From NCBI GenBank assembly GCA_902614055.1, contig CACMJX010000001.1, positions 62,001-126,000 of the forward strand: a DNA stretch of 64,000 nt, written 5' to 3'. Within the stretch, counting starts at the first letter, position 1. The number at the start of each line of letters is the position of its first letter. A program made the translations under genes and the position numbers. The notes under the pieces are model-generated. The model ran no database searches. It worked only from the letters and a program-made list of their open reading frames with translations, and had not been told where the DNA came from. Origin of the DNA: an uncultured Pelagibacteraceae bacterium. GTDB lineage: Bacteria > Pseudomonadota > Alphaproteobacteria > Pelagibacterales > Pelagibacteraceae. Below are positions 18,902-20,955 of this stretch, piece by piece.

Positions 18902-20740
18902 GTGGAACGTATAATTACAAAATCATTTGCGAGATTAATGGGCAGGGGTGTCCATAGGGGTTTCATAACCTACGAAGAATTAAACAAATCTCTAGGAAAA
19001 AGAAATCTGTCAAACGACAATTTAGAGCAAGCTTTTATACATATTCTTGACGAAAAAATCATATTAGTTGAAAAAAAATCAGACTTTAAAGTTCTTAGAA
19101 AGAAAGACAATGGCTCCAAAGAGGAGGGTAAGTCTATAGAAAAAAGTGATGACCCAATCCGAATGTACCTCAGAGAAATGGGAGGAGTAGAGCTTCTTTC
19201 CAGAGAAGGTGAAATTGCTATTGCTAAAAGAATAGAAGCTGGAAAAGATGTAATGTTGAACGCACTTTCACAAAGTCCCATTACAGCTCAACAGTTTTTT
19301 GAATGGAATACTAAACTTCAAAATGATGAAATCTTGGTTAGAGAAATAATCGATATTGATACTAATTATATGGAAGATGAAGACACAGGTCAAAGTGCAA
19401 AACAAAAAAAATCAGATGATGGAAATGACAACGAAAGTACTGATGACCAAAATAATGCTACAGATGATGACGAATTTAATCCAACACTTGCTGCTATGGA
19501 AACAGAGATTAAACCCAAAGTTTTACAAACTATTTATAATTTAACTAAAGAATATAATAAACTTATAAAATATCAGAAAGAAAAACTAGATTGTGTATTA
19601 GATTCAAAACCATTTTCTCCTTCAAAAGAGAAAAATTACAAAAAAATTGTAGAATATATTCTAGAGAATATTAAAACATTACAATTATCTCCTTCAGTAT
19701 TAGAAAATTTGGTTCAAAAACATTATATAGAAAACCGTAAAATAATTTCTTTAGAAGGAAATCTTTTAAGGTTTGCAATTAATGAAAAAATTTCTAGAGA
19801 TGAATTCATAAAATTTTATGTTGGAAATGAAATCAACCCAAATTTAAAAAGTTTCTTAGACACCAATGATATATGGAAGAAATTTTTTCAAAAATATAAA
19901 GTTCAATTTAATGAAATTAGAGATAGACTAATTGAAATAAGCAATAAGCTTGGGATATCAGTCACTGACTATAAATTAATGGTTAGTAGAATTCAAAAAG
20001 GTGAGAAAGAGTCTAGAATTGCAAAAAAGGAGATGGTTGAAGCTAATCTAAGATTAGTTATTTCTATTGCCAAAAAATATACAAATAGGGGTTTGCAATT
20101 TTTAGATTTAATTCAAGAGGGAAATATAGGACTGATGAAAGCTGTGGATAAATTTGAGTATCGAAGAGGATATAAATTCTCTACATATGCAACATGGTGG
20201 ATTAGACAAGCGATAACGAGATCTATAGCAGACCAAGCTAGAACAATAAGAATACCTGTCCATATGATTGAGACAATTAATAAAATTGTGAGAACTCAAC
20301 GTCTAATTTTGAGTGAGTTTGGTAGAGAGGCCACACCAGAAGAGCTCGCAAAAAAATTGAGAATGCCACTTGAAAAGGTAAGAAAAGTGTTAAAGATCTC
20401 AAAAGAACCAGTATCGCTTGAAAAGCCAGTTGGAGATGAAGAAGATAGTAGTTTAGGAGATTTTATTGAGGATACAAAAGCACTAGCACCACTTGAGCAG
20501 GCAATAAAATCAAATTTGAGTGAGGCAACAACAAAGATACTTTCAACCTTAACCCCGAGAGAGGAAAGAGTTTTAAGGATGAGGTTCGGAGTTGGCATGA
20601 ATACTGATCATACCTTGGAAGAAGTTGGCTTACAGTTTTCTGTAACAAGAGAAAGAATTCGTCAAATAGAGGCGAAGGCACTTAGAAAATTAAAACATCC
20701 TAGTCGATCAAAACAATTAAAAAGTTTCTTAGAAAGTTAA
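18902..20740 (+). CDS. rpoD: RNA polymerase primary sigma factor (sigma-70)
   Basis: [81 protein letters not shown] start. Confidence 0.97.
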
Positions 20741-20742
20741 TA

Positions 20743-20817
20743 GGGCCGTTAGCTCAATAGTAGAGTACTGCATTGACATTGCAGGGGTAGTTGGAGCGTA
20801 ACCAACACGGCCCACCA
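20743..20817 (+). tRNA. tRNA-Val (anticodon GAC), encoded CCA, non-canonical D- and T-loops
   Basis: Folds by hand: GGGCCGT/ACGGCCC acceptor, GCTC/GAGT D stem, CTGCA-TTGACAT-TGCAG anticodon arm, GTTGG-AGCGTAA-CCAAC T arm, ACCA end. Confidence 0.85.
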
Positions 20818-20878: not shown

Positions 20879-20955
20879 GGGCCTGTAGCTCAGTTGGTTA
20901 GAGCAGTACACTCATAATGTATTGGTCCCAGGTTCGAGTCCTGGCGGGCCCACCA
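20879..20955 (+). tRNA. tRNA with CAT anticodon (Met, or Ile2 with lysidine), encoded CCA
   Basis: GGGCCTG/CGGGCCC acceptor, GTACA-CTCATAA-TGTAT anticodon arm, CCAGG-TTCGAGT-CCTGG T arm. Confidence 0.93.

Follow-up and report, generated by a model that had tools for sequence, protein, structure and literature searches.

The stretch analysed here, referred to as the window, comprises 64,000 nucleotides of a contig from an uncultured Pelagibacteraceae bacterium (CACMJX010000001.1). On its forward strand, at positions 20743-20817, it carries a gene for a valine transfer RNA (tRNA), tRNA-Val(GAC), with unusual D and T loops. ARAGORN called tRNA-Val(gac) with exactly these ends, and Rfam RF00005 scored the gene at 53.6 bits, over the gathering score, compared with 72.7 bits for the neighbouring tRNA-Met. 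The minimum free energy structure is a cloverleaf that makes up 69% of the ensemble (-28.6 kcal/mol, z -3.3 against shuffles). All pairs of the acceptor stem (GGGCCGT/ACGGCCC) are perfect, the D stem (GCTC/GAGT) has a single wobble, G10-U25, and the anticodon stem (CTGCA/TGCAG) encloses the loop TTGACAT, with the anticodon GAC at 20775-20777. The T stem (GTTGG/CCAAC) is again perfect and is followed by A73 and an encoded CCA at the 3′ end. Stems of 7, 4, 5 and 5 base pairs, the GAC anticodon and the 3′ CCA are those of a functional elongator tRNA. An earlier note on the window had described a clean cloverleaf with perfect acceptor and T stems and encoded CCA, with which both search programs, the fold and the reading of the arms agree.

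The elbow formed by the two loops departs from the canonical pattern. The D loop AATAGTA (20756-20762) reads A14 A15 U16 A18 G19 U20 A21, with A15 at 20757, A18 at 20759 and G19 at 20760, and is invariant among the most diverged alleles. The T loop AGCGTAA (20795-20801) holds A54 (20795), G55 (20796), C56 (20797), G57 (20798), U58 (20799), A59 (20800) and A60 (20801). Where a canonical elbow has G18 with U55 or its pseudouridine (Psi55), the gene has A18 and G55, and the trans Watson-Crick/Hoogsteen pair U54-A58 is replaced by A54 and U58. The earlier note had assigned the bases at 18, 19 and 54 to 58 in the same way, with G19-C56 kept and the usual targets for 5-methyluridine at 54 (m5U54, T54) and for Psi55 missing, and the sequence agrees, position 54 being A and 55 being G. 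Unmentioned there were G10-U25, A15/A48 in place of the purine-pyrimidine Levitt pair R15-Y48 (A48, at 20789, ends the variable loop GGGTA, 20785-20789) and A60 where a pyrimidine is normal. Compared with a canonical bacterial tRNA-Val(GAC) (RF00005), the cloverleaf, arm lengths, U8, A14, A21, G19-C56, the purine at 57 (R57, here G57), the anticodon loop and CCA are the same, but 18/55, 54/58, 15/48 and 60 differ and neither T54 nor Psi55 has a substrate base.

The window's own genome (G000) is 78% complete, and several of the genomes compared are also incomplete. It has one Val-GAC gene and one canonical Val-UAC gene; no second Val-GAC was found in this 78% complete genome or in the complete genome G012. 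About 20 species of the same genus share the entire 75-mer with 100% identity. More diverged alleles show compensated changes in the stems of the acceptor, anticodon and T arms, with the D and T loops unchanged. All stem cells of these alleles (100%) are paired, 13 of 21 pairs show compensatory double changes, and the stem covariation score is 0.548 against 0.159 for shuffles, with none of 500 shuffles matching the observed value. Because the gene is identical in about 20 species and its stems covary, the pattern is, on this comparison, far beyond chance; compensating stems around fixed loops are, on the same comparison, the signature of a working molecule. Only rarely does the T loop read AGCATAA instead of AGCGTAA among the A18-G55 Val alleles of the genus that have A54-U58. 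The earlier note had held that the changes look coordinated rather than random decay, and had proposed looking for a second Val-GAC gene and for random variation of the loops among close relatives. Its view gains support, since the loops stay fixed while the stems covary and positions 18 and 55 change only together (see below).

Where the Val pattern had no match, the reason in many genomes is another type of D stem (GTTC) or a T loop of canonical sequence. One relative, G065, possesses Val-GAC though even a relaxed pattern failed to match it, so a missing match does not mean a missing gene. This copy (G065:C1:394496-394570) has the anticodon loop TCGACAC, with C33 instead of the near-universal U33. 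In another genome (G144) a swapped Val-GAC is recognisable in its 3′ part only, with unrelated sequence upstream, reflecting either an assembly chimera or real decay.

A homologue of rpoD (sigma-70) occupies an open reading frame at 18902-20740 on the forward strand and ends 2 nucleotides before the Val gene. The same gene lies immediately upstream, on the same strand as tRNA-Val, in most of the relatives checked. No terminator-like site was seen in the gap between the two, and because their linkage is also kept in most relatives, co-transcription appears likely. The canonical tRNA-Met(CAT) gene on the other side (20879-20955, forward strand) provides a contrast, and its canonical nature, already stated in the earlier note, is confirmed by ARAGORN and Rfam. 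An Rfam match to HPnc0260/Plastid-ycf2 over this gene was below threshold, represents the antisense of a tRNA and was discarded. Two further oddities were noted among tRNA-like genes elsewhere in this genome. A truncated second tRNA-Gly(GCC) (C4:12320-12386, 30.8 bits), its T and acceptor arms degenerate, lies some 1.6 kb away from its intact counterpart and is possibly an integration scar or pseudogene. On contig C25 the predictions for a transfer-messenger RNA and for tRNA-Leu(GAG) lie on opposite strands, with their 3′ ends overlapping by about 14 nucleotides.

The history of the Val elbow in the order was traced with a pattern in which positions 18 and 55 were both free. BLASTN with the Val tRNA found nothing in the sister family f2, where canonical alleles are too diverged; the pattern scans found them. 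Val-GAC in f2 is canonical (D loop AGTGGTA, T loop TTCGATC), and the swapped form occurs in nearly all members of the window's genus. Of 107 Val-GAC genes listed in that genus, 104 are A18-G55, three are G18-U55 and none is mixed. Val-GAC is mostly canonical in genera g5, g6 and g8-g10. One gene (in G222) combines A18-G55 with a retained U54-A58 (T loop TGCAATC), and the 54-58 flip is therefore separable. Moreover, in an rpoD tree four canonical Val alleles stand at separate places among swapped ones, and supported branches force at least three switches. This scatter indicates that canonical and swapped elbows interchange at one locus, next to rpoD.

The remaining tRNAs of the order (297 genomes) were scanned with A18 required, position 55 free and Val-type anticodons excluded. 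Matches were obtained in 150 of the 297 genomes, and all 150 listed are tRNA-Phe(GAA) with G55 and with U54-A58 kept. By genus, this Phe form was found in 117/198 genomes of g1, 27/29 of g8 and 6/7 of g9. The complete genome G012 encodes 32 single-copy tRNAs, three with A18-G55 (Val-GAC, Phe and Thr-GGT) and 29 with a canonical elbow. Because G012 has only this one tRNA-Phe, the A18-G55 elbow must, on the predicted gene set, support aminoacylation and translation there. The tRNA-Thr(GGT) of G012 (G012:C1:1131481-1131555) has the D loop AGGTAGTA and the T loop TGCAAGT, and ends in CACCG rather than CACCA, leaving no full encoded CCA; its counterpart in G000 is canonical. It resembles tRNA-Thr of Nomurabacteria, and a transfer is possible.

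Beyond the order, the A18 pattern gave a single match, a chance match that is not a tRNA, in 381 genomes outside the family but within the same class. A scan of the GTDB species collection for A18 with G55, the middle anticodon base being other than A, matched 114 stretches; 80 of these loci were parsed, and 68 are tRNAs that pass the stem checks. The bacterial examples include Thr tRNAs of Saccharibacteria and Nomurabacteria, His of Microgenomates, Pro of Obscuribacterales, Nostoc-type tRNAs, Asn of Verrucomicrobia and an Ala of Rickettsiales, and the archaeal ones Ala and Thr of DPANN archaea. Many more A18-G55 tRNAs occur on phage contigs (IMG/VR). The Nostoc-type tRNAs (TACATACTAGCTCA..AGTAGAG), with A18-G55 at ten loci and of many identities, may belong to stress-induced arrays, of which the trn operon of Anabaena (PMC10272220) is an example. 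The earlier note had treated the Val gene as a single odd case; the oddity is real, but it is not singular. On these scans the gene belongs to a recurrent A18-G55 elbow class, previously unremarked as far as the searchable literature shows.

Within this class the two positions are tightly coupled. In IMG/VR, dropping the requirement for G55 gave the same 80 listed loci as demanding it, and with position 18 free and G55 required there were four extra loci among the matches listed, one of them a tRNA (C18-G55). With G18 and position 55 free, only U55 was found among the matches listed. Among the listed matches parsed as tRNAs, 78/78 with A18 are A18-G55 and 129/129 with G18 are G18-U55, and neither A18-U55 nor G18-G55 occurs. 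The same holds for all 385 distinct tRNAs surveyed (A18-G55 176, G18-U55 206, G18-C55 2, C18-G55 1, A18-U55 and G18-G55 0). Fisher p values for the coupling take relatives as independent and carry no literal weight; what counts as independent support is that the class recurs in at least eight combinations of lineage and tRNA identity. Positions 54, 58 and 60 form a second linked set: all 37 tRNAs with A54-U58 have A60, all 41 with G54-G58 have a purine at 60, and 81 of the 91 with U54-A58 have a pyrimidine there. Of the 37 tRNAs of the A54-U58 subtype, 34 have A/A or A/C at 15/48. The flip of 54-58 was also found alone, in tRNA-Ile and tRNA-Asn at five viral loci that have A54-U58 (T loops such as ATCGTTA) yet a normal G18-U55. 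Taken together, the covariation suggests that residues 18 and 55 pair physically in the A18-G55 class. Phages, unrelated bacteria and archaea, and other tRNAs of the relatives all show this paired swap, which on that account resembles a second functional elbow design rather than gene decay.

The Psi55 synthase is TruB, an enzyme that is to our knowledge close to universal in bacteria. In a tally by genus from the per-genome table, truB was found in none of 235 genomes of genera g1, g8, g9 and g10 (the window's genus and its neighbours), in 9/9 genomes of g5-g7 and in 42/53 of sister family f2. In G012 (G012:C1:1216434-1217870) infB, rbfA and rpsO are adjacent without truB; in G061 the order is infB-rbfA-truB-rpsO, with truB between rbfA and rpsO. 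The G012 locus thus presents a clean loss of a near-universal gene from this operon. The Phe form of the elbow is confined to genera lacking truB (150/235 genomes vs 0/62 in truB-bearing genera); counted by genus this is 3/4 vs 0/7 (Fisher p = 0.024, relatedness ignored). Moreover, the genomes of Nomurabacteria (5/5) and Microgenomates (4/4) with A18-G55 tRNAs all lack truB. Loss of truB has a suggestive link with A18-G55 in the order but, as the truB-bearing genus g7 also has the Val swap, is not a requirement for it. The TrmA family was absent in all nine genomes tested, f2 included; since canonical f2 lacks it too, its absence was rejected as an explanation. The earlier note had named truB and trmA-type genes as ones to check, and both are absent from the window's genus.

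We consider the gene a working elongator tRNA-Val(GAC) whose elbow is built on alternative contacts between the D and T loops, and give this reading a probability of roughly 0.8. The A18-G55 pair would take the place of the tertiary G18-Psi55 pair. In the textbook pair N1-H and N2-H of G18 both donate to one acceptor, O4 of residue 55, whereas in the Val tRNA the donor would be G55 and the acceptor N1 of A18, a reversal of roles. As the gene retains the outer G19-C56 pair, U8-A14, A21 and an intercalating R57, the molecule would still have its L-shape and its flat G19-C56 surface, and since R57 would intercalate and G19-C56 cap the elbow, the ribosome, RNase P and synthetases should meet a normal surface. 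In the Val subtype the pair closing the T loop would be flipped from U54-A58 to A54-U58, with compensation by A60 and A15/A48. With no uridine at 54 or 55, pseudouridylation by TruB and m5U54 would be neither possible nor needed. The mature Val tRNA probably lacks Psi55 and T54, and A18-G55 is most likely an alternative elbow pair that needs neither. Loss of truB in the genus would remove one selective reason for U55, and may be causally linked to the swap.

Several points weigh against this reading. A54-U58 is not strictly isosteric with U54-A58, and the T loop could be looser. Val-UAC might cover part of the GUN box, in which case Val-GAC could be less constrained than tRNA-Phe. All pattern scans covered only D arms of the GCTCA...GTAGAG type, and each viral listing ran to 80 loci at most. 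Finally, truB loss cannot by itself account for the swap, since genus g7 has truB and also Val A18-G55, and truB is present in 25 of the 40 other genomes with A18-G55 tRNAs.

Of the alternatives, two retain some plausibility. The elbow may be a mobile trait, in which phage-borne or otherwise horizontally carried A18-G55 tRNA genes replaced the resident gene, any gain being independence from host modification enzymes or, speculatively, escape from tRNA-targeting host defences. The many phage A18-G55 tRNAs fit this, as they include a Val-UAC (L302) with the same AATAGTA / GGGTA / AGCGTAA block and there is a phage Val-GAC (L357) with the T loop AGCGTAA, and so do the alternation of alleles beside rpoD and the tRNA-Thr(GGT) of G012, whose D loop is shared with Nomurabacteria tRNA-Thr. 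However, no near-identical phage counterpart of the host Val or Phe genes turned up, and some canonical and swapped alleles have the same acceptor and anticodon arms, which suggests local change or recombination; we regard replacement as possible but on balance unlikely. Alternatively, TruB may have been lost first and have caused the swap, G18-U55 being weaker without Psi55 and A18-G55 restoring stability. The confinement of the Phe form to truB-less genera and the missing truB in Nomurabacteria and Microgenomates speak for this order of events. As sole cause, truB loss is ruled out because of the truB-bearing g7 and the 25 of 40 other genomes; moreover, most tRNAs of truB-lacking G012 keep U55, and a leading role for the loss seems doubtful.

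A non-translational role is very improbable. Staphylococcal Gly-tRNAs of peptidoglycan synthesis have altered D-loop GG and T-loop positions, and the Val gene could likewise have been altered to escape EF-Tu. Against such a role, it is the only Val tRNA of GUC/GUU type found in the 78% complete G000, and G012 too yielded no other Val-GAC that would make this one a redundant isoacceptor, the sole tRNA-Phe of G012 has the same elbow, G19-C56 is kept, and no partner pathway is evident among the immediate neighbours, which are rpoD and housekeeping genes. Weakest of all is decay, in which the gene is a pseudo-tRNA or drifts neutrally in a genome that has been streamlined, with decoding left to Val-UAC: that second Val tRNA does exist in G000 and G012, the G144 gene is recognisable only as a 3′ portion and several relatives lack a pattern match (G065 among them, which has the gene), but identity across about 20 species, fully compensated stems, invariant loops, an encoded CCA, the use of GUU for about half of the Val codons in G012, and the same elbow in the only tRNA-Phe of G012 and in other phyla make it hardly credible.

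Beyond the gene itself, we lean towards the view that nature has two interchangeable elbows, G18-Psi55 and a modification-independent A18-G55, with 54/58/60 subtypes U-A-Y (Y, pyrimidine), A-U-A and G-G-R. The latter would have arisen or spread repeatedly (in bacteria, DPANN archaea and phages) and taken over essential tRNAs in a species-rich, marine-type bacterial lineage after or alongside the loss of TruB.

According to one paper the G18-Psi55 pair is invariant (PMC6337575), and another counts its bases among the hallmarks common to every tRNA (PMC7912444). No report of an A18-G55 elbow was found in the searchable literature, with older suppressor-tRNA papers outside its reach. Papers of 2003 and 2004 by Zagryadskaya, Kotlova, Doyon and Steinberg on laboratory suppressor tRNAs with altered D and T loops reportedly deal, by their titles, with features on which a functional L-shape depends, pair 54-58 among them. 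The closest parallel is eukaryotic tRNA-Ala(AGC), which combines R15/A48 with A54/A58, a joint feature not seen in bacteria or archaea according to the authors (Westhof et al. 2020, PMC7566577). There, as here, a change at 15/48 accompanies one at 54/58, and position 60 is a purine; unlike it, the bacterial A15/A48 comes with A54-U58 and A18-G55, and there is no A54/A58 purine pair. Similarly, tRNA-Pyl and mitochondrial tRNA-Ser are functional without the standard arrangement of D-loop and T-loop sequences (PMC6337575, PMC7609411), but their arms depart from the usual lengths and their D loops are small, whereas here the arms are standard and only elbow bases are swapped.

Because residues 18 and 55 covary strictly in nature, their contact appears to be rebuildable from different bases, like a compensatory double mutant in a helix. 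The A18-G55 elbow predicts tRNAs that cannot be substrates of TruB or TrmA, and such tRNAs would allow the purpose of Psi55 and T54 to be tested directly. The finding may also be of use in tRNA gene-finding and engineering, both of which usually assume G18 and U55 to be constant. For the organisms themselves, a truB-less lineage with sole-copy A18-G55 tRNAs would constitute a natural experiment on the loss of tRNA modification.
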